DNA from: Chitinophagaceae bacterium
GTDB taxonomy: Bacteria; Bacteroidota; Bacteroidia; Chitinophagales; Chitinophagaceae
DNA: 33,525 bases
Reading direction: 5' to 3'
Assembly: GCA_947379895.1 (NCBI GenBank)
Contig: CANCPA010000030.1
Coordinates: forward strand, 1 to 33,525
The notes under the pieces were generated by a model. It was given only the letters and a program-made list of their open reading frames with translations, did not search any database and had not been told where the DNA came from. Made by a program: the position numbers and the translations under genes. Shown here in pieces: positions 3,542-33,525 of this stretch; the stretch's first letter is position 1; each line of letters starts with the position of its first letter.

Positions 3542-3607
3542 GGTAATTTAGGAGATATGTATGGTGTAAAAGTTTTTGGCTATTCATTTTCAGGATAAAT
3601 TCTATTT

Positions 3608-3796
3608 ACAAAACCGATGAGTTTTGCAATTTAACTGATAAGTTAAGCGACAAAACCGATGGGTTTTGTAATATAACTGATAAGTTAAGCGACAAAACCG
3701 ATGGGTTTTGCAATATAACTGATAAGTTAAGCGACAAAACCGATGAGTCTTGTTATAAAACTGATAGGTTAAATGACGAAACCGATCTTCAAATTT
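3608..3796. repeat. 42-bp tandem array made of two alternating 21-bp palindromic units
   Basis: Units begin every 42 bp at 3608, 3650, 3692, 3734 and 3776 (the last partial). Each 42-mer splits into two 21-bp halves. Half A has the core CAAAACCGATGGGTTTTG, two 7-bp arms around GATG. Half B has the core TAACTGATAAGTTA, two 5-bp arms around GATA. This gives nine 21-bp units, with the last ones degraded. The array fills most of the 339-base gap between the beta-helix gene and the sulfatase. The period is a multiple of three, which produces a spurious repetitive reading frame on the other strand. There are no spacers, so it is not a CRISPR array. Confidence 0.9.
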
Positions 3797-3880
3797 ACTT
3801 GGAAAGAAAGTAGTGAAACTGTCCATAGTTTGAAAAATTGAAAAGCAATAATCAATAAAGTGAGTTAAATTAAGAATAAT

Positions 3881-21092: not shown

Positions 21093-22124
21093 ATGGTTTA
21101 TTTCAACTTAAACGATAGTCTCAACCTCATTAAAAAGCTCACTTTTCTTAGATTATTCAATGCGGCTAAGGTGATGTTGAGTTTTCAATTATCAAAGTTG
21201 TTGGGAAAGCCTATTCAATGGGGCTATCCAATTTCTATCTCTTTCGAGCCTACTACAAGTTGTAACCTTCGCTGTCCAGAATGTCCTAGTGGTCTTCGTG
21301 AGTTTACTCGTCCTACAGGTATGCTTGAAAAAAGCTTTTTCAAAACTACGATTGATGAAATTCATCGGGAATTACTCTATTTGATATTCTATTTTCAAGG
21401 AGAGCCTTTTCTAAATCCCGATTTCTTGGAAATGGTCAAATATGCAAATTCAAAAGGAATATATACAGCAACTAGTACTAATGCCCATTATTTAACCGAT
21501 GATAAAGCAAGACAAACGGTTGAAAGTGGTCTAGATAGACTCATTATTTCAGTAGATGGAACAACACAGGATGTTTATCAACAATATAGAGTAGGTGGGA
21601 AGCTTGATAAGGTTTTGGAAGGAGCAAGGAATATTGTGAAATGGAAGAAAGAATTAAATAGTAAAACTCCTTTTGTATTCTTTCAATTTCTTGTTGTAAA
21701 GCCAAATGAACATCAAATTGAAGCCATAAAGAAACTTGGCGAAGAGATAGGCGTTGATCAGGTTCGTTATAAGACTGCACAGGTATATGATTTTGAAAAT
21801 GACCCCAATCAATTAATTCCAACTATTGATAAATATAGCAGGTATCGGAAAGGTAAAGATGGAATATTGAAATCGAAGAGTGGGTTGATGAATCATTGTT
21901 GGAAATTGTGGCATGCAAATGTAATTACATGGGATGGTTTAGTGGTTCCATGTTGTTTTGATAAGGATGCTAGTCATCAATTAGGAAATTTATCAACGCA
22001 AAGTTTTAAGCAGACTTGGAATAATGAAAATTACAAGCAGTTCCGAAGCGAACTGATGAGCAGCAGAAAGAACATAGACATATGTTCAAACTGTAGTGAG
22101 GGGCTTACAGTTTGGGAGGATTAA
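21093..22124 (+). CDS. Radical SAM/SPASM domain protein
   Basis: The 343-residue protein has the radical SAM cluster CNLRCPEC (Cys57, Cys61, Cys64) after SISFEPTTS, the YFQGEPFLNP motif (GGE-like SAM-binding position), TSTNAHYL, and GLDRLIISVDGTTQDVYQQYRVGG. A C-terminal SPASM-type region holds Cys269 (NHCWKLW), Cys287 and Cys288 (VVPCCFDKD), and Cys331/Cys334 (ICSNCSEG), enough for an auxiliary iron-sulfur cluster. Such proteins modify peptides, sugars or other small molecules. No precursor peptide or partner gene is visible next to it, so its substrate is unknown. It starts opposite the GH25 gene and is followed by a MarR regulator in the same direction, 143 bases away. Confidence 0.88.
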   Translation: MVYFNLNDSLNLIKKLTFLRLFNAAKVMLSFQLSKLLGKPIQWGYPISISFEPTTSCNLRCPECPSGLREFTRPTGMLEKSFFKTTIDEIHRELLYLIFYFQGEPFLNPDFLEMVKYANSKGIYTATSTNAHYLTDDKARQTVESGLDRLIISVDGTTQDVYQQYRVGGKLDKVLEGARNIVKWKKELNSKTPFVFFQFLVVKPNEHQIEAIKKLGEEIGVDQVRYKTAQVYDFENDPNQLIPTIDKYSRYRKGKDGILKSKSGLMNHCWKLWHANVITWDGLVVPCCFDKDASHQLGNLSTQSFKQTWNNENYKQFRSELMSSRKNIDICSNCSEGLTVWED

Positions 22125-22206
22125 GTTGTTATAGATGATGGATAAGTTTATTTAGGCTTGAATCAAGTTGAATTGTTATCTGAAGCTTTTTTTATTACTT
22201 AATATT

Positions 22207-22221
22207 ATCATCAAATATGAT
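22207..22221. promoter_or_regulatory. Inverted repeat upstream of the MarR gene, possible operator
   Basis: ATCAT (22207-22211) and ATGAT (22217-22221) form a 5-bp inverted repeat with a 5-nt gap, 46 bases before the MarR start. MarR proteins often autoregulate through such sites, but the repeat is short and AT-rich. Confidence 0.3.
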
Positions 22222-22267
22222 TTAGTCTGAATAGTAATGTAGATGATGCATATTAAAACACTGAGAA

Positions 22268-22720
22268 ATGAATATAGATAAAGCAATTAAACAGAAGGCT
22301 TTCAAAAATGAGCACCAAAAAGCGATGGTAAACATGATTTACACGTCAAATTGGATTCACGAAAAGCAGAAAGAAATCTTTGAACCGCACGATATAACTT
22401 CTCAACAATTTAATATTCTTAGAATTCTTAGAGGTAGCAGATCTCCTTTGAGTACTATGGATATTAGAGATAGGATGCTTGATAAAAATAGTGATACTAG
22501 CAGAATGGTTGTAAGATTGGAAAGGAAAAAACTAGTAAGTAAAAGATTAAATGATAAGGATCAACGATTGGTTGATGTAACAATTTCTGAAAGAGGTCTT
22601 GAATTATTGTCTCGACTTGATCAGCAGGATGAACAACTGATTGGTATAATTTCAAACCTTACAATTGAGGACGCAAAAAAATTAAATGCCCTTTTAGATA
22701 AGATAAGACATCAGAAATAA
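22268..22720 (+). CDS. MarR-family transcriptional regulator
   Basis: The 150-residue protein has the MarR winged-helix layout: an N-terminal dimerisation helix (KNEHQKAMVNMIYTSNWIHEKQKEIF), HDITSQQFNILRILRGS, the recognition region STMDIRDRMLDKNSDTSRMVVRLERKKLVSKRLNDKDQRLVDVTISERG (D-x-R in the wing), and a C-terminal helix. MarR regulators are usually repressors that respond to small ligands or oxidation; there is no cysteine here, so redox sensing by thiol is unlikely. It may regulate itself, the upstream radical SAM gene or the GHL10 gene 168 bases downstream. No target can be named from the sequence. Confidence 0.9.
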   Translation: MNIDKAIKQKAFKNEHQKAMVNMIYTSNWIHEKQKEIFEPHDITSQQFNILRILRGSRSPLSTMDIRDRMLDKNSDTSRMVVRLERKKLVSKRLNDKDQRLVDVTISERGLELLSRLDQQDEQLIGIISNLTIEDAKKLNALLDKIRHQK

Positions 22721-22876
22721 GCCGCTTTGTATTTGAAATGGGAAAGGAAAAGAGGTAATTTATAATCATTTATTTAGATATTTATAAGATATCAACTCAT
22801 ACTTCTTTTTTAACTTATCACATTCCCTCTTTTCATTAACCAATATCTCACATTTCATAGTTAACATTTCAATTCT

Positions 22877-22884
22877 TATCTTCG
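22877..22884 (+). promoter_or_regulatory. Possible -7 box (TATCTTCG) of the GHL10 gene
   Basis: TATCTTCG differs from TAnnTTTG by one base and ends 4 nt before the ATG at 22889, the same geometry as at pyrF. No -33 TTG is evident. Confidence 0.35.
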
Positions 22885-22888
22885 GGGC

Positions 22889-24376
22889 ATGAATAGACCT
22901 TTCTTTCTACTACTTTTTCTTTGTTTCTCTCTCTCTTTTCCGATTACGAATGCACAGGTCAATTTTGAGTTCAGAGGTGTATGGATTGCAACAGTTGAAA
23001 ACATTGATTGGCCAAAAGAAAAGGGACTCTCAAGTGATGAACAAAAGTCTTCTTTCATAAAATTATTAGATACTCATCAGCGAAATGGTATCAACACCAT
23101 CATCATGCAAGTTCGTCCTGCGGCTGATGCCTTTTATCCTTCGCCTTATGAACCTTGGAGTGAATACCTTAGTGGAAAGCAAGGGGTGGCTCCCTTTCCC
23201 GAATATGACCCACTTGCTTTTATGATCAAAGAAACGCATAAAAGAGGCATGGAGTTCCATGCATGGATTAATCCCTATCGAGCTGTTTTCAATCTGAAAC
23301 ACTCTTCAATTACATCAAATCACATTACCCACACTCATCCTGAATGGTTTTTAAATTATGGTAATTTAAAGTACTTCAATCCGGGTCTCCCTGAAGTAAG
23401 AGAATATGTAACTAAAGTGGTGAAAGATTTGATTGAGAAATATGATGTGGATGGCCTTCACATGGATGATTATTTTTATCCTTACCGAATTACAGGAAAA
23501 GAATTTCCTGACGAAAGAACCTATAAGTTGTATGGACATGGTCTGTCCAAAAATGAGTGGAGACGAAGTAATTGTGATAGCATTATCAAAAATATCTATG
23601 ATGTTATTGCGGCAACAAATAGTCATGTAAAGTTTGGTATCAGTCCTTTTGGTGTATGGCGAAACAAGAATCAGGATGCCGACGGTAGTAATACCACAGC
23701 AGGAACTACCTGTTATGACGATTTATATGCCGACATTTTGTTGTGGTTAAAAAATGGTTGGATTGATTATGTAACACCACAGTTATATTGGGAATGTTCA
23801 AATAGGCTTTGTCCTTATAACGAGTTATTGGATTGGTGGAGTAAACATACATTTGGGAAGCATTTATATATAGGTCATAGTCTCTATAAAGCGAATACTG
23901 TTGCAGCTTATAAGGATAAAAATGAGTTACCCCGTCAGATTCAGGCAATTCGTGCCAATGAAAATGTGCTTGGTAGCGCCTTCTTTAGCAGTCAAGATTT
24001 AATGAAAAATACGAATGGTTGGGCTGATAGTTTACGTTTTAATTATTATGTGCTTCCTGCTTTGCTTCCTCCTATGGAATGGATTGATAGTACTTTGCCA
24101 GATAAGCCAATTGTTACAAAAATGGATTCTACGACTTTTAAACTCTTAAATGGCGGAAAGGAAAAGATAAAGGGGTATGCCATATTTGCCTTGTCAAGCT
24201 TAGTAGATGAGAAGTTGGAATATGCAACTTTGATAAAGATTATTACAGCTGATAATGAAACCACTTATAATACTTCAAAAACAATTGCACCCGCAGACAA
24301 TCGGTTATTTGTCTCTGCTATCAGTATCAATAACAATATCAGTGAGTGGGTTGAGCTGAAAACAATATTGAGATAA
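22889..24376 (+). CDS. GHL10 family glycosidase-like protein (DUF187)
   Basis: The 495-residue protein has a signal peptide (1-22, ending TNAQ). Its TIM-barrel domain (about 25-340) matches glycosyl-hydrolase-like 10: FEFRGVWIATVENIDWP, NGINTIIMQVRPAADAFYPSPYEPWSEYLSG, FHAWINPYRA, HPEWFLNYGNLKYFNPGLPEVREYV, YDVDGLHMDDYFYPY with the acidic pair, FGISPFGVWRN, WIDYVTPQLYWE, and a C-terminal beta-rich domain. Family members are secreted or surface proteins linked to cell-wall or exopolysaccharide glycan cleavage, with few defined substrates. It follows the MarR gene, has a possible own promoter and ends at a strong terminator. Retention of the acidic residues in the barrel suggests it is active. 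Confidence 0.9.
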   Translation: MNRPFFLLLFLCFSLSFPITNAQVNFEFRGVWIATVENIDWPKEKGLSSDEQKSSFIKLLDTHQRNGINTIIMQVRPAADAFYPSPYEPWSEYLSGKQGVAPFPEYDPLAFMIKETHKRGMEFHAWINPYRAVFNLKHSSITSNHITHTHPEWFLNYGNLKYFNPGLPEVREYVTKVVKDLIEKYDVDGLHMDDYFYPYRITGKEFPDERTYKLYGHGLSKNEWRRSNCDSIIKNIYDVIAATNSHVKFGISPFGVWRNKNQDADGSNTTAGTTCYDDLYADILLWLKNGWIDYVTPQLYWECSNRLCPYNELLDWWSKHTFGKHLYIGHSLYKANTVAAYKDKNELPRQIQAIRANENVLGSAFFSSQDLMKNTNGWADSLRFNYYVLPALLPPMEWIDSTLPDKPIVTKMDSTTFKLLNGGKEKIKGYAIFALSSLVDEKLEYATLIKIITADNETTYNTSKTIAPADNRLFVSAISINNNISEWVELKTILR

Positions 24377-24432
24377 TTAGAATCGTTCTACTTTAGTATC
24401 AATAATTTTTGCCTCTCAAAAGAATAATTTAT

Positions 24433-24473
24433 CCCAGATTACGCAATAGTGTCCTATTGCGTAATTTGGGTTT
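24433..24473 (+). terminator. Strong intrinsic terminator of the GHL10 gene
   Basis: CCCAGATTACGCAATAG (24433-24449) pairs with CTATTGCGTAATTTGGG (24454-24470), a 17-bp stem with one G-U pair and the tight loop TGTC, followed by TTTAATAAAA. It may also end transcription from the other side. Confidence 0.85.
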
Positions 24474-24535
24474 AATAAAACATAAGAAAAAACGATGTCT
24501 TTTTTATGTGGATGATGTTACAATTTGTTTAGTCT

Positions 24536-24807
24536 TTTTCTTTTCAACCCCATCTATTCATTGCCCACCCTGATTTATTTAATCAAATACCTTTTTAAAT
24601 TGAATGCATTCCACAACACATTTTGCATGTTCCATAGAAAATTTCACTCATACTAATATTTTTTTTGACATACCATTTTGTATTTCATGGATACCACATT
24701 GAATTTCTCGAGTACTAATTTTTATTTCTCGAGTACTCTGAATGATTTTAAGGGTACCAAAAATAATTTTCAACATACCTGATGGTAATATTCAAGTACT
24801 ATTTTTA
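24536..24807. repeat. 21-bp-period degenerate array (about 13 units)
   Basis: A TAC(C/T) or TTCC box recurs at 24588, 24609, 24630, 24651, 24671, 24692, 24713, 24734, 24755, 24776 and 24797. Every interval is 21 bases except one of 20. Two weaker boxes continue the phase at 24546 and 24567. Each unit begins with an A/T run (ATTT) ten bases before the box. Two adjacent units share ATTTCTCGAGTACT exactly (24703-24716, 24724-24737); others carry GGATACC, GGGTACC or the palindrome GAATGCATTC. The array lies in the ~900-base gap between the GHL10 terminator and the heparinase-like gene. It is non-coding and has no spacer structure. Confidence 0.85.
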
Positions 24808-25246
24808 AAAAAAATATGCAGCAAACTATGGAATGTGTTCAAAATGATATGAGTAAGTTATATCACATCTTAATAAGTTATCTGACTTAAAATTTAAAAC
24901 TTAACTCATGTTGAACAGCATTTAAACAATTAATAAGGAATTACCACATAGGAGACACAATAAGTACATAAAATTTTATTCTAGTTTAGATAAGAAAACA
25001 TAGAAAAAAAGTGTCACTTTTTTACACTCGAGTCAATGTGAACTTAAAATGAAACGATTTTTACCTTCTATATTGATTTCTTTGTGCCGAGTGTGGCAAC
25101 CATTTTTTAGTAATCTCATTATTGAATGTTTTATTTGTAAATTATCCTATTAGTATTTGAGTTAAATCCAATCTTTTTGCAACATTTGCAACAGTAAATG
25201 GTCAGTTCTTCAATAAACTTTTTTCAAACAGATTACTCTATGGATT
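24808..25246. other. Non-coding AT-rich gap, few recognisable elements
   Basis: No gene is seen. It contains a degenerate ACCACATAGGAGACACAATAAG stretch (about 24941-24963) distantly like the ACACAAAG elements, and the hairpin-prone AAAAAAGTGTCACTTTTTT near 25005-25023. Neither can be assigned a function. Confidence 0.4.
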
Positions 25247-25254
25247 TACTTTTG
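25247..25254 (+). promoter_or_regulatory. Bacteroidota -7 box (TACTTTTG) of the lyase gene
   Basis: TACTTTTG matches TAnnTTTG and lies 21 nt before the ATG at 25276. No -33 TTG is seen at the usual distance. Confidence 0.45.
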
Positions 25255-25275
25255 TTAATCTAAAAAATAAAGAAG

Positions 25276-27852
25276 ATGAAGAAATCGATTTTGCTTGTTT
25301 ACATCACAATTCTTTCAGTAGTGTATTCTAATGCTCAATTCAAAAACAACCAATCTCCTTTCGCTGATAAGCCTGCAGATTCTTATAGTAATTTTAAAGA
25401 TGAAAATGGTAAACCCGGTGTTATACTTTGGGGGTCGCTTAAGGAAAAAGATTTGGGATCTAGAAATGTAAACTTTAATCAAGAAGGTGTCCGTAAGGTC
25501 AATCAAGTGCCTGCTCCAGGAGTTCATCCTCGAATTTATTTTGGACCCGATGATTTGCCTGAAATAAGAAAGAATTTAAAGGAGACACAATGTGGACAAG
25601 GCTGTTGGAAAAACATTCTTTCATGGACTGAGATGATGAAGGGGAATTACGATGACAAAGCAGATTATGCACAACCCGATGTATGGAATGGAAATTTTGG
25701 TGGCCTCCATGGGCGTGTTCCTTTATTCCGATTAGGGGTGCCTCGTTCAAATGGAATGGCCTACAACCATAATACATTGGCAAAAGACATTTACGATGGA
25801 TTGGCAAATGGAACTGCAAAAACTTTCCCTGAATTCTTTTGGGATGCTTTTTCCATAGAAGCATTTCGTTGTTTGATAGAAAAAGATGAAACAGGTGCAA
25901 AGAAGTTAGGGAGTGCTGCTATGACTGCTTTAAAGATTGATATTACCAAAAGGGATTCTATTCGTTTAGCAAATCATATTACTAAACCCAATGAACAACC
26001 TATTGGACGTTTTCAATTGGCGTTTATCTATGATTTTATTTATAATTGGTTAACCCCTGAACAAAAGAAAGCAATCCACGATGAACTTGCAGAAAATACT
26101 TGGAGTCATGATAACTATGGTACTTTTAATACAGCTGAGGCATCAAGGAGTAATTGGGCAACCTTCTCCTATTGGTTATTCGAAGTATTAGCCATTGAAG
26201 GTGAGCCTGGGTTTAATGACCTAAAAGTAAAAGGGATGTATAGAGGATGGCATAATTTGATGACCTATGGATGGTTTCAGTCTGGTGCAACCTTCGAAGG
26301 AGAGGCAAAGAATCAATTAGGAATGGATGGTGTATTGTCTTTTGCGAAACGTACTGCTCTTTATGGATTTGAGGACATTGCAGGACATCCTTATTTGCAG
26401 GCTTATGCCCGTCAGTTTTTGCCTCATAGTATCATTCCTATGCAGGATGGATTTATTAAATATGATTTGTTAGGAGGATGTCATGGCAAATCAGGAGGTG
26501 CCAATATCAGTGATTTGTTGGGATTAAAATATATGTTTCCCAATGACAAAAAAATTGATTGGGTATATCATGTCGCAATGAAAGATAGTTACAGTAATGT
26601 TCCTGACCGTCCTGACGGATATTTCAATGCTCTTCTGTTCTTCTCCATCTTTGCTACAGATTTTGATAAAAACAATAATGATCCTTCGAAACTAGATCTT
26701 GGCAATACCTTTTTTTGTGGTGAGCGTTCTTTGATGATGACGAGGAGTAGTTGGACTACAAAAGATGCTCTGATGTTGAATTTACATACTCGTCAGGCAA
26801 ATGGAGGTCACCCTTCTTCAGATAGGAATGCAATAATGGTGGCAGGTGCAGGTAGGGTTTGGAGTCCCATTCAAGGAGGCTATGCCTTTGACAATTTCAA
26901 ACAGAGTGTTGTAGTTATTGATAAGCATTCACAGGATGAACATTCACCTGCTTCAATGGTAGATTTTAAAGATGAACCGTTAGCCACTTTTGCAGTCGGG
27001 GATGCAAAATATGCTTGGGATTACAACAATAAGGAACAGGAAAGGAAGAAAGGTTATTATACGGTGGCAGATGTGAGGGCAGGAAAAGTAGAGATGCCCA
27101 AGACGGGTAATTGGGAATTAGAACCCAATAGTGTAAATCACTTTAGTTACTTAAAGTTACCATACCGCTATTTGGAAGTGCCGAGGAGTGAGACTCCTCA
27201 TTGGATTTTGCCTACAGGGGCAGTTCGTCCCTTTTTGCGTCAGGAAAATTTCCGGGTAATAAAGGCATTCCGTACTGCGGGTATTGTAAGAACCGAAAAG
27301 CCATTTGCTTTGATTATAGATGATATTCAAAAAGATGACAAGGTGCATCATTACGATTGGATTCTTACGCTCGAACATGATATTCAGATAGTGAGTAAAT
27401 CTAAAATCAATGAACATGAAATGGATATAATTCTTACAGGTAATGACCCCGAACAAATCAAAGGTTGGGACAAAGACTCTTTGCCTGCAAATTATAGTGG
27501 AAAGGTGCCTAGTAAGCAACCAATGCTATTAGTAAGAGTGCTAGATATGAATAATACAATTTCAGTAAATGAAGTAAATATAGAAGAATGGCGTAGTAAT
27601 AAGCCAAAGAGTAACGAAAGTAATGTTCGGAAATTGATTATTCCTGTAGATGCTGTTTCTCCAAATTTCAAGGTGTTTTTATATCCGTATCATGAGGGCG
27701 ATGAATTACCTAAAACAAGTTGGAGTGGACATCATACCAAGGTAATTGTAAAATGGAGTAAGGGGCAAAAGCAAGAAATAGATTTTAGAAATAATGTAGA
27801 TGGCAGAACACATTTGAACATAAAATATGTGGATAAAAGCTTCATTTTTTAG
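25276..27852 (+). CDS. Heparinase II/III-like polysaccharide lyase
   Basis: The 858-residue protein has a signal peptide (1-20, ending SNAQ). After a ~55-residue lead comes HPRIYFGPDDLPEIRKNLKET, then an alpha/alpha-toroid region (~90-460; EASRSNWATFSYWLFEVLAIEG, ATFEGEAKNQLGMDG). A heparinase II/III-type beta-sandwich follows, from about residue 480, with NLHTRQANGGHPSSDRNAIMVAGAGRVW; His512 sits where the family has its HGHxDxN motif. Such lyases cut heparin/heparan, alginate or related uronic-acid polymers by beta-elimination. At the toroid site where catalytic Tyr residues usually occur (EGPxYY-type), the sequence reads EGEAKNQ (341-347), so activity or mechanism may differ. It is transcribed alone, ~0.9 kb after the preceding terminator, with the 21-bp array upstream. 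The CAZy family is not assigned. Confidence 0.75.
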   Translation: MKKSILLVYITILSVVYSNAQFKNNQSPFADKPADSYSNFKDENGKPGVILWGSLKEKDLGSRNVNFNQEGVRKVNQVPAPGVHPRIYFGPDDLPEIRKNLKETQCGQGCWKNILSWTEMMKGNYDDKADYAQPDVWNGNFGGLHGRVPLFRLGVPRSNGMAYNHNTLAKDIYDGLANGTAKTFPEFFWDAFSIEAFRCLIEKDETGAKKLGSAAMTALKIDITKRDSIRLANHITKPNEQPIGRFQLAFIYDFIYNWLTPEQKKAIHDELAENTWSHDNYGTFNTAEASRSNWATFSYWLFEVLAIEGEPGFNDLKVKGMYRGWHNLMTYGWFQSGATFEGEAKNQLGMDGVLSFAKRTALYGFEDIAGHPYLQAYARQFLPHSIIPMQDGFIKYDLLGGCHGKSGGANISDLLGLKYMFPNDKKIDWVYHVAMKDSYSNVPDRPDGYFNALLFFSIFATDFDKNNNDPSKLDLGNTFFCGERSLMMTRSSWTTKDALMLNLHTRQANGGHPSSDRNAIMVAGAGRVWSPIQGGYAFDNFKQSVVVIDKHSQDEHSPASMVDFKDEPLATFAVGDAKYAWDYNNKEQERKKGYYTVADVRAGKVEMPKTGNWELEPNSVNHFSYLKLPYRYLEVPRSETPHWILPTGAVRPFLRQENFRVIKAFRTAGIVRTEKPFALIIDDIQKDDKVHHYDWILTLEHDIQIVSKSKINEHEMDIILTGNDPEQIKGWDKDSLPANYSGKVPSKQPMLLVRVLDMNNTISVNEVNIEEWRSNKPKSNESNVRKLIIPVDAVSPNFKVFLYPYHEGDELPKTSWSGHHTKVIVKWSKGQKQEIDFRNNVDGRTHLNIKYVDKSFIF

Positions 27853-29263: not shown

Positions 29264-32200
29264 TTATTTAAAAGAAACATTTTTCTGAAAACTCTCTCCA
29301 TTAGAACTCGTGAGTTTAAGTGTATAAATTCCAGAAGTGATTAACCTATCTGAAGAAATCGTCTTAAGTAGCTTTCCTCCAGCGTGTATTATTTCTTGGC
29401 TAATTATTTTTTGACCTAAGCTATTCAATAACTGAAGTGTGTATTTTCCTTGAGTTGTATTATAAAGTTCAACTTTGAATGAGGAACCTATAATTGGATT
29501 TGGATAAACACTTAAATTATTTTTAATAGAGTTAGATGAAATTGAAACTGCATCACTATAAGTTACTTCGTCATTGTTATTAATGACCCGGATACGGTAA
29601 TAGACTGCTCCAGATAGATTTGTCAAGTCGGTGTATGAAGTGATTGAGCTTCCCACAGTTTCTAGGTTTACAAAATCCTTTCCATTTGCTGATCGTTGAA
29701 TAGTAAAGGAGAAGATATTATTGGCTGAAGGAACATTCCAACTCAAAAATAAATGTTCATTATTTTCTGTTACAGTCAAATTAATGTTTGAGATAGGTAA
29801 TATATAAGGTGCAAAGTAAATATTGAATCTGTTGAAATAAGTTGCAGAATCTGTACTCGTTGTAAAATTAATTACAGTACTATCACTAGATACTTTAGTT
29901 ACATTGTTCAAATATTTATCTTTCACAAAGGCGTTCATCCCACTGCCATTGAAAACAAAACCATTCAATTTTAATTGATAGTTTGTTTTTGCCACCATCT
30001 TAGAAAGTTGAAGTTTGATAGTATCATTAATCGTGGGCATGTCCATCCCATCAATACATAATTGAGATCCACTCTCAGAAAAAGTAATACTTTCACCAGT
30101 ATTCATTAATTTTCTACTGTCTTCTTTTCCTATTCCTTTAGTAAATCCTGCTTTAAATACTGCAACTGCACCATCAATAGATCTGCCACCTTTCCATAAG
30201 TTGATACCTAATTTGTTGACAGGAGTTTTCGTTCCAAAGACAGTCAAAGGCGAATTTCCTGCTGTTTTGTCTGCTTCTTGAAATAGGATTTGTGGAGAGG
30301 TTCCTGATCCATCTTGTTGTATAAAAAACGCCATTCCAGGTTGTATATCATCCGCAATACTAGAACTTCCATTACTATTCGTTCCGGATACGTAATTATA
30401 ATTGATGTAAGTGCTCGCATTGCTACCATCACGAACATTTGGATCTAAATAATAATAGTAAGGCTGAACACCTTGAGTACTTCCGTGACTACAAATTGAA
30501 CTCCAACTTACTGTACTAGCATAAGGATTGCCTATGAAACTGAATGCACTTGTACCTCCATTTAGTCCATAACCTGAGCTAAATCCTCCTGTGCTACTTG
30601 TGCCGCCTGTTGCAAAAGTCACATCACCAATCACTAAATTCCCTGTTGTTCGTAAAGTTAAATCACTATTCATCGCAGCTGGCTGTGGTGTAGTATATAT
30701 ATTGTAAGAGCGATTTCCTCTAGCTAATAATCGGTATCCCATTGCGGGGTCAAGATTCATTGTTTTTGTATTTGTAGGATAAGTCCATACGCCTCCAGGA
30801 AAAGTTTGCATTGAACCACTTCCTGAATAGGAAACATCAAACCCTTTTGTGCTCACCCAATTTTGAGTATGTACAGTATCTTTAACGCCGGTTATCAATA
30901 TTCCGTATCCATTGTTATAAACACCACCTTCCTGCCAATTATTAAATACACTTCCTGCACTCGCTACTATTGGGCAGACATCAATAAATGGTCTGAATAC
31001 ATGTTGAGAAATGTATCTTTCAGTTGTTACTGTACCAGTAATGCTTCCCCCTACCGCTGCTACCATTGCGTTTTGACTAGTACTAGTATTTTTAAGTGTT
31101 AAAAATCCATTTGTGGTTAGTGTACCAGTTATAGAATATAAAACACCATAAAGGTCAAGGGAATTGCCTAATGTTACATTACTACTATTTACAATTAGAT
31201 GCAACAGACTATTATTTCCTGGACTAAAATATAGAGTGTCATTACAATCCATTTGTAAGATAGAGGTAGAAGAACCAATAAATGTACCACTACCTCCCGA
31301 CGAAGTTTCCATGAATAATGTATGTCCGTTTATTGAAAGGGTGCCATTATTTATTAAGTCATAAATATATGTATCTGTAGATAGAGCCGGGCTAGGTGTT
31401 ATCCCTGAAGGAATAAATGCTACTTCTGTTCCTGGAACTGAACCCGCAGTCCAATTTGTTGGGTCACTCCAGTCAGCAGAGGTTGATCCTGTCCACTTAT
31501 TGTTGATCGTTATTGAAAATGTATTTGAAGTGCCTGCAGGACTAATAACAGTTACATCTGTTGCTCCAACAATTCCAGATGGAACAGCAGCAGTCATACT
31601 AGTTCCACTTGCTACTGAAAAACCAACTGCACTGATTCCTCCAAATTGTACGTCAGTGGCTCCACTGAAATTTGAACCTGTAATTGTAATAGTATCACCA
31701 CCAAATGTAGTCGGAGTAGAGAGACTAGAAATTACGGGTACGGATAAATAGGTGAATCCTCCGTGAGAATCGGTACCCCCAGTTGTTGTTACTGAAACAC
31801 TTCCAGTTGAACCTGCTGCTACGAGAGCGTCAATTGTAGTGGCGTTTATAACTGAAAAACTTGCAGCTGCTGTACCGCCAAAAGATACGGCACTTACTAT
31901 AGATACACCTCCAGCCTTAAACCCCGAACCAGTGATCGTTACTGTTGCACCAGTACTTGCTGAAGTTGGGGAAAATGAGGAAACAATAGGAACTGGAATA
32001 AAAGTAAACGCACTAGTTAATGTACCAGTTCCTCCAGTTGAAACAACAGAGACATCACCCGAAGAACCAGAACCAACTGTCGCGGTAATCTGTGTAGAGC
32101 TATTTACTGTAAAACTAGCGGCAGTAGTACCACCAAAAAAAACTGCTGTAACACCATTAAAATTAGTCCCCGTGATAATTACAGAACTTCCTGAATTAGT

Positions 32201-33525
32201 AGAAGTAGGTGAAATTGAACTGATTGTTGGGCTTGGCAAATAGGTAAATCCTGCTAAAGAAGTACTTCCTCCAGAAGTTACAACTCTAACACTTCCACTT
32301 GTCCCTGTATTAACAACAGCAGTTATTTGTGTAGAACTATTTACTGTAAATGATTTAGCTGCTGTACCTCCAAAAGATACACCCGTAACGCCAGAGAAAT
32401 TAGTACCAGTTATAACCACAGAACTATCTGTTCCAGCAGAAGTTGGGGTAAATGAACTTACGGTAGGGCTAGGTAAAAAGGTAAAACCCGACTTTGTACC
32501 TGTACCTCCAGATGTAACAACGCTTACAATACCAGTTGTACCCGTATTTACTACAGCAGTTATTTGGGTCGAACTATTGACTGTAAAAGATTTTGCTGCT
32601 GTGCCACCAAAAAATACGCCAGTTACTCCAGAATAATTTGTTCCTGTTATTACAACAGAACTATCTGTTCCTGCTGATGTTGGTGTGAAAGTACTAACAG
32701 TAGGGCTAGGTAAAAAAGTGAAACCTGAAAACGTGGTTGTTCCGACAGGTGTAACAGTAGTGAGTGAAATATAACCCAATCCTGTAGTTGTGCCTGATGC
32801 GACTTTTGCTTTTATTTGGGTAGGTTTTCCACTACTATCTGTAATAATTGCGGCAGTACCACCTACTCCTGTACTTGACGTGCCAAATTTAATAGATGAG
32901 ATATTGGCAAGATTCGTTCCTGTAATCGTTATGATACTGTCTTGACCTGCCGAAGTTGGAGAAAAACCAGTAATTGCAGTACAAGCAAACGAACTGCTAG
33001 TCGTTAATGTTAACCCCGCAGCTACTACCGTTATTACGCCTGATCCAGATGCACTAGTTCCAACAGTTATAGGAATTGAGGACGCTGTTACAGATCCAAT
33101 AGTCGCACTAACCCCACCGCATGTTACACTTGCCACGAGAGATGTACCTAAATTAGTTAGACCTGTGCCTGTTATTGTTACTGATGAACCAGAAAATCCT
33201 GAAGTAGGTGAGCAGGTTGTAACTGTAGGGGCTGTAACTATAGAGAAACCATTTTTTGTACCAGTTCCTGAATTCGTTACTGCAACAAAACCAGAACCAG
33301 TTGTAGTACCAGTATTTACAACTGCTGTTATTTGTGTACTACTATTGACAGTAAATGAAGCGGCTGCTGTTCCTCCAGTTCCATTGCTTGCAGTTCCAAA
33401 TTTCACTGCTGATGCACCTGTAAAATTGGTTCCAGTAATCACAACTGTTCCCCCAACAGCAACTCTTGTGGGGGAGAAGGCAGTAACTGTTGGAGCCTGT
33501 GAGTAAACTTGATTTCCCCATAAGG
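29264..33525 (-). CDS. Giant T9SS-sorted protein with eight IPT/TIG domains (5' end outside)
   Basis: The frame is open to the right edge. A GTG at 33442 could be taken as start, but the 27 residues before it read LWGNQVYSQAPTVTAFSPT, the end of a signal peptide (cleavage near VYS-QAP) running straight into the first TIG domain, so only ~15-20 residues are missing. Eight IPT/TIG domains of ~78-90 residues follow (each opening P.V..F.PTSA...(S/T)V.ITGTNF and ending (S/T)GGT.T..GF(T/S)(F/Y)L); domains 4 and 5 are almost identical. Next come a WTGSTSADWSDPTNW beta-sandwich/solenoid region, a long domain with GYRLLARGNRSYN, a fibronectin-like segment (LTVTENNEHLFLSWN) and a T9SS type A domain (LSVYPNPIIGSSFKV). 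It is an outer-surface adhesin or matrix protein. It heads the operon containing the PID-CTERM and exosortase genes. Confidence 0.9.
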   Translation of the reverse strand, partial: LWGNQVYSQAPTVTAFSPTRVAVGGTVVITGTNFTGASAVKFGTASNGTGGTAAASFTVNSSTQITAVVNTGTTTGSGFVAVTNSGTGTKNGFSIVTAPTVTTCSPTSGFSGSSVTITGTGLTNLGTSLVASVTCGGVSATIGSVTASSIPITVGTSASGSGVITVVAAGLTLTTSSSFACTAITGFSPTSAGQDSIITITGTNLANISSIKFGTSSTGVGGTAAIITDSSGKPTQIKAKVASGTTTGLGYISLTTVTPVGTTTFSGFTFLPSPTVSTFTPTSAGTDSSVVITGTNYSGVTGVFFGGTAAKSFTVNSSTQITAVVNTGTTGIVSVVTSGGTGTKSGFTFLPSPTVSSFTPTSAGTDSSVVITGTNFSGVTGVSFGGTAAKSFTVNSSTQITAVVNTGTSGSVRVVTSGGSTSLAGFTYLPSPTISSISPTSTNSGSSVIITGTNFNGVTAVFFGGTTAASFTVNSSTQITATVGSGSSGDVSVVSTGGTGTLTSAFTFIPVPIVSSFSPTSASTGATVTITGSGFKAGGVSIVSAVSFGGTAAASFSVINATTIDALVAAGSTGSVSVTTTGGTDSHGGFTYLSVPVISSLSTPTTFGGDTITITGSNFSGATDVQFGGISAVGFSVASGTSMTAAVPSGIVGATDVTVISPAGTSNTFSITINNKWTGSTSADWSDPTNWTAGSVPGTEVAFIPSGITPSPALSTDTYIYDLINNGTLSINGHTLFMETSSGGSGTFIGSSTSILQMDCNDTLYFSPGNNSLLHLIVNSSNVTLGNSLDLYGVLYSITGTLTTNGFLTLKNTSTSQNAMVAAVGGSITGTVTTERYISQHVFRPFIDVCPIVASAGSVFNNWQEGGVYNNGYGILITGVKDTVHTQNWVSTKGFDVSYSGSGSMQTFPGGVWTYPTNTKTMNLDPAMGYRLLARGNRSYNIYTTPQPAAMNSDLTLRTTGNLVIGDVTFATGGTSSTGGFSSGYGLNGGTSAFSFIGNPYASTVSWSSICSHGSTQGVQPYYYYLDPNVRDGSNASTYINYNYVSGTNSNGSSSIADDIQPGMAFFIQQDGSGTSPQILFQEADKTAGNSPLTVFGTKTPVNKLGINLWKGGRSIDGAVAVFKAGFTKGIGKEDSRKLMNTGESITFSESGSQLCIDGMDMPTINDTIKLQLSKMVAKTNYQLKLNGFVFNGSGMNAFVKDKYLNNVTKVSSDSTVINFTTSTDSATYFNRFNIYFAPYILPISNINLTVTENNEHLFLSWNVPSANNIFSFTIQRSANGKDFVNLETVGSSITSYTDLTNLSGAVYYRIRVINNNDEVTYSDAVSISSNSIKNNLSVYPNPIIGSSFKVELYNTTQGKYTLQLLNSLGQKIISQEIIHAGGKLLKTISSDRLITSGIYTLKLTSSNGESFQKNVSFK

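Follow-up and report, generated by a model that had tools for sequence, protein, structure and literature searches.

A non-coding stretch in the genome of a Chitinophagaceae bacterium carries a short degenerate box that recurs with a spacing of 21 bp, and it raises the question of whether the spacing or the letters of the boxes are maintained, and by what. The window, i.e. the whole stretch of DNA analyzed, comprises 33,525 nucleotides (contig CANCPA010000030.1 of assembly GCA_947379895.1). We described the array and its surroundings, identified its copies in the source genome, and compared it with similarly phased arrays in this and other genomes.

The array and its surroundings

The original prediction described eleven TAC(C/T)/TTCC boxes, spaced by 21 bases with a single step of 20, in a 900-base gap between genes, and these positions were verified. 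The boxes start at 24588, 24609, 24630, 24651, 24671, 24692, 24713, 24734, 24755, 24776 and 24797, every step being 21 bp except the 20-bp step from 24651 to 24671, and the flanking ORFs lie 899 bp apart (24377-25275). Weaker boxes were also found upstream. With limits set from the paralogous copies described below, the focal array is 252 bp long and consists of 12 units of 21 bp that are ∼50% alike, so that its letters have drifted far and its spacing is nearly fixed. The coordinates of all features are collected in Table 1.

Table 1. Arrays, neighboring repeats and flanking genes in the window (strand '.', none assigned).
Feature	Position	Strand	Remarks
Second array of the class: two quasi-palindromic units of 21 bp alternate, giving a 42-bp period	3590..3809	.	
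Upstream gene, glycosyl hydrolase-like 10 (PF02638), 495 aa	22889..24376	+	
Inverted repeat ATTACGCAATAG / CTATTGCGTAAT, a dispersed MITE-like element in its short form	24427..24476	.	Dispersed matches in its own genome; outside the array
Phased array, 12 x 21 bp	~24553..24805	+	Lag-21 identity 0.49, z 6.6; ends sharp, common to the paralogous copies
Eleven TAC(C/T)/TTCC boxes	24588..24800	+	Direct reading
Dispersed repeat, ~212 bp	24903..25114	+	~40 genome copies, 73-90% identity; outside the array, duplicated with it in C77
Downstream ORF, 858 aa, without domain match	25276..27852	+	

The lag-21 identity of 0.49 was measured across positions 24536-24807, and compares with 0.305±0.028 at the same lag in dinucleotide shuffles, in which the maximum across lags 5 to 60 is 0.445; lags 42, 63 and 83/84 of the focal array also stand above the rest. 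None of 5000 shuffles attained the observed value, so shuffled sequence does not give comparable phase, which is what the original prediction had said would refute it, and chance or an AT-rich artefact is rejected as the source of the phase. With this identity (z 6.6) the focal array is a series of tandem units with common ancestry. It has no 7-bp sub-period, the lag-7 identity being 0.27 against a background of 0.29.

The original prediction further linked the array to a single secreted lyase gene. The N-terminal start of the downstream ORF resembles that of a secreted protein; the assignment as a lyase is unsupported, since this ORF matches nothing in Pfam, NCBIfam or the PDB sequences. The closest relatives of the upstream GHL10 protein are mostly from Chitinophagaceae MAGs (62-69% identity). 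Elsewhere in the window, the complementary strand at 29264-33442 encodes a secreted repeat protein of 1392 aa; its repeats are of the CoaZ_rpt_PGGG type, it bears a T9SS type A sorting tail, and its gene contains a 237-bp tandem duplication. The MITE-like element, with inverted ends AACCCAGATTACGCAATAG, occurs both at 24427-24476 of the window and at 4205-4385 of L010; a collapsed copy lies to the left of the focal array, and in C287 a fuller copy directly adjoins the array on its right.

Copies, families and the wider class of arrays

By searching the source genome (G000; 5.32 Mb in 401 contigs) we identified three more copies of the focal array, which are 94% (C77), 79% (C287) and 75% (C92) identical to it. 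All four copies hold the same 12 units one to one and at the same length, with one internal 1-bp indel in total; the 20-bp step reflects the loss of one base in the window's copy only, as the other three have the full 21 bp there. Most copies diverge immediately beyond ∼24553-24805, C30 and C77 being the exception with a shared right-hand flank. No homologs of the focal array were found by blastn in 59 relatives, nor in plasmid or phage records.

Three array families were found, namely the focal family with its four members, a second and a third, and the units are unrelated between most arrays. The second family (C2, C53, C4, C31, C24, C10 and C54) has query/subject lengths of 284/284, 275/275, 264/264, 211/210 and 200/201 at 71-87% identity, and in it the form AAGCACGTGCTT alternates with CCGCACGTGCGG. 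Its units in L245 (1549-1780), L246-L250 and L252 follow the pattern NNG(C/T)A(C/A)GTGCNN; exchanges between AA..TT and CC..GG in them are compensatory, and in close copies an odd unit, CAAAGATTCTTTTTGTG, moves the phase by one. The third family includes the second array of the window (units AAAAC-CGATGA-GTTTT / TAACT-GATA-AGTTA) together with arrays in C1 (8819-9168) and C2 (29672-29968).

The original prediction had proposed looking for an excess of 21-bp arrays in the genome and its relatives, and the result is strongly positive. In an 834-kb sample of G000, strong non-coding arrays have period 7 (20 arrays), 21 (16), 42 (5), 63 (5) or 14 (4), all remaining periods together account for 5, and shuffles gave none. 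Averaged over intergenic DNA, the autocorrelation is highest at lags 21 (z 9.8) and 42 (7.7), followed by 14, 7 and 63. Extrapolation from the 834 kb, in which 26 arrays have a period of 21, 42 or 63, suggests ∼165 such arrays per genome. Arrays of period 7 and 14 are about as common in G000 as those of period 21.

We scanned further genomes on both strands for five TACY boxes set 21 bp apart, allowing at most one mismatch. This pattern gave 1406 overlapping matches in 12 of the 13 genus genomes; a backward control pattern at the same period is equally common in these genomes, which indicates that arrays of any sequence are abundant, rather than TACY as such. At period 20 there are 0 TACY matches (160 for the backward control), and at period 22 there are 131, mostly in one genome. 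G004, a genus member, has many arrays of 22-bp period (TACTCTCTTTGCCATCGACGTC family) beside its 21-bp ones; in another member, G005, the 21-bp pattern has no match. Any pattern match was found in 50 of 294 family genomes and 36 of 296 phylum genomes, and outside the family 7-bp arrays predominate among the matches listed. By these counts, the 21-bp class has a patchy distribution, with its greatest density in this genus. Two other genera were sampled on account of their pattern matches, and in these samples all strong non-coding arrays have period 21 or 42. The TACY box of the original prediction is present in the focal array, but it is not a signature of the class, as units are array-specific: the units inspected from class arrays have no common motif, and arrays vary from near-identical to strongly degenerate units.

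Register, letters and symmetry

Across 53 arrays, 5125 mismatches to the consensus stand against 40 phase jumps, most of them near array ends; the jumps were counted by fitting a 21-state cyclic profile to arrays chosen by lag-21 identity, a choice that biases the count to intact phase. The comparison of paralogs is freer of this bias. By hand count over near-independent pairs from the three families, array paralogs differ by ∼347 substitutions and 2 indels, whereas the ratio is 176:21 between nearest neighbors of an ordinary repeat that is dispersed in this genome (Fisher p 3e-8); net-zero +1/-1 gap pairs inside arrays, which are spurious products of a cheap-gap aligner, were not counted as indels. 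The flanks that were duplicated together with arrays are intermediate (∼124:5 substitutions to indels), so their contrast with the arrays is weak (p 0.017), and because of these flanks the case for a constraint on array register is good but not closed.

The original prediction suggested that spacing, not exact sequence, is selected. Spacing is indeed kept far better than letters; however, the boxes are also weakly constrained between copies. Among the divergent focal copies, invariance depends on the unit phase (permutation p 0.002), and the phases at which units are alike, i.e. the TAC box and the T run, are those invariant among copies (Spearman 0.49, p 0.026). Since the most alike unit phases are also the most invariant between paralogs, the boxes are not free to drift, and a weak sequence constraint on them exists besides the preserved spacing.

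Many arrays of the class have dyad symmetry. Their units are quasi-palindromes with arms that change together, and 19 of 49 arrays have compensatory dyads at p<0.05 when compared with column shuffles (Fisher 7e-15), although column shuffles break the linkage of unit types too, and part of this signal may reflect higher-order units. The focal array has no dyad signal (z 0.7) and is not palindromic. At paired positions of the class, G-T and A-C mismatches are equally frequent (60:56), i.e. there is no RNA strand bias; thus the symmetry looks like a property of DNA, either of dimer sites or of a palindrome-correcting mutational process, rather than of RNA pairing.

Several ordinary explanations were rejected. 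Heptamer repeats as the origin of the focal array are out, as it has no lag-7 signal, and so is CRISPR identity, as the units are only ∼50% alike and contain no constant repeat. No array of Bacteroidetes promoters is involved, because TANNTTTG, which we take to be the promoter motif of this phylum, does not occur within the focal array. A gene-orientation or terminator role is discarded since the arrays show no preference in orientation to genes or in position. Ordinary curved phased A-tract DNA fails for want of any 10.5-bp periodicity: there is no 10.5-bp harmonic and no signal of intrinsic curvature in the class (W/S power 0.093 against a flat expectation of ∼0.1).

Candidate explanations and significance

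The array is a non-coding DNA element of fixed length; its phase, its fixed unit number, its dispersed copies, the class across genome and genus, the scarce indels and the weak conservation of boxes between copies are established by the data. We tentatively read such arrays, with rather less than even confidence, as a DNA scaffold constrained in phase: its degenerate sites lie at intervals of two helical turns, and a putative multimeric protein would read it in register. In the focal array, twelve degenerate sites at this distance would all present the same face of the helix, the putative DNA-binding multimer would load side by side on the scaffold they form, and register would outweigh the precise sequence of the individual sites. 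The scarcity of indels would then be caused by selection on register, and the putative protein would act at the level of DNA. The notion of a shared helix face, which was part of the original prediction, fits the periods of 21, 42 and 63 bp, but the units have no 10.5-bp signal of their own, and the coexisting arrays of period 7 and 14 in G000 misfit helical phasing. Also against a scaffold stand the lack of gene preference, the missing dyad in the focal array and the weak contrast with flanks; and since units are array-specific, it is difficult to see how one protein could read the sequence of them all.

The main rival, and a quite plausible one if somewhat less probable, is that the arrays are functionless relics: replication or recombination would make tandem duplications of any sequence on a 21-bp ruler, which would then undergo point decay and segmental duplication. 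It agrees with units that are unrelated between most arrays and anything from near-identical to strongly degenerate, with the absence of orientation or position preference and of codon or curvature signals, and with a genome in which other dispersed repeats and duplications abound, while some duplicated flanks are likewise low in indels. However, decay should leave indels and gains or losses of units, and these are nearly absent in paralogs up to 29% diverged; the phase-specific conservation between copies and the compensatory dyads of many arrays are also unexpected for relics. An origin from mobile or formerly mobile elements, with the arrays as transposase- or recombinase-binding sites or as the whole body of a non-autonomous element, is unlikely despite the dispersed copies, sharp ends and fixed length. 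Tn7- and Mu-like elements have ends with multiple recombinase-binding sites, to which such arrays could correspond. Yet inspection by eye of the ends of the four focal copies revealed neither a conserved terminal inverted repeat nor a target-site duplication, the duplications sometimes take in flanks (C77; the right flank of C2-C53), and no recognized transposase is encoded by the flanking ORFs examined.

Explanations that act through a gene product are less probable still. We consider it improbable that the array is transcribed and acts as RNA, whether as a sponge for proteins or RNAs or as a ladder of hairpins. About 42% of class arrays do have better folds than their shuffles (z < -3), and compensatory changes are present in the units, but the focal array does not fold better than its shuffles (z -0.6 and -1.0), the mismatches lack the strand bias mentioned above, and no Rfam match above threshold was found across 22000-26500. 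A decayed or hidden coding repeat with a period of seven residues is hardly credible. The period of 21 is a multiple of 3 and the focal array is partly open in one frame; over the arrays of the class, however, open frames (17 vs 15.6 expected) and stops (1582 vs 1636) are as in within-phase shuffles, and phase changes by 3 are not dominant.

Several known systems resemble the 21-bp class in part. Minisatellites and VNTRs likewise consist of short intergenic units placed head to tail, with a unit sequence specific to each array. In the 21-bp class, however, one ruler (21, with 42 and 63) serves unrelated units, and phase outlasts letters. Unit number, the instability of which is a VNTR hallmark, is fixed in paralogs up to 29% diverged: the four focal paralogs (75-94%) have the same 12 units, and lengths in the second family are constant. 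Plasmid iterons and par centromere arrays consist of degenerate direct repeats spaced by about one or two helical turns, and a protein loads on one face of them. The 21-bp class has the same kind of repeats at such distances; but it is scattered over the chromosome, its units are unrelated, and no rep or par gene is recognized alongside, with no such Pfam match in the ORFs adjoining the focal array and the neighbors of other copies partly readable owing to contig ends. CRISPR arrays are regularly spaced across hundreds of bases too, but the 21-bp arrays have no identical repeats with unique spacers, and their whole unit of 21 bp is conserved between paralogs. REP/BIME sequences are palindromic elements, and some class arrays also consist of short quasi-palindromes, which, in contrast, stand in a strict 21-bp tandem register.

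A search of the literature, chiefly open-access, found no description of a class of 21-bp intergenic arrays in Bacteroidota; the nearest are the TAACTGA heptamer repeats of Beggiatoaceae, cyanobacteria and some Bacteroidetes (PMC4679880). Like these and the cyanobacterial STRR repeats, the 21-bp arrays are sporadic, intergenic and phylogenetically patchy, and 7-bp arrays occur in G000 as well; unlike them, the focal array and most class arrays have a period of 21 without a 7-bp sub-period and share no single conserved heptamer.

Bacterial tandem repeats are normally defined by sequence, and the number of their units is unstable, whereas here the invariant is the spacing, and unrelated units share the 21-bp register across several genomes of a single genus, with sporadic cases in other genera. 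Something in this genus makes or maintains DNA arrays on a strict 21-base ruler, and either a mutational process with such a ruler built in or a DNA scaffold read by register would be new. It is possible, though doubtful, that the unrelated families on one ruler constitute an undescribed class of chromosomal elements in Chitinophagaceae, which a single protein system, strict in register and tolerant in sequence, builds or needs. If so, the arrays could serve, for instance, as a scaffold that organizes the nucleoid or the chromosome.
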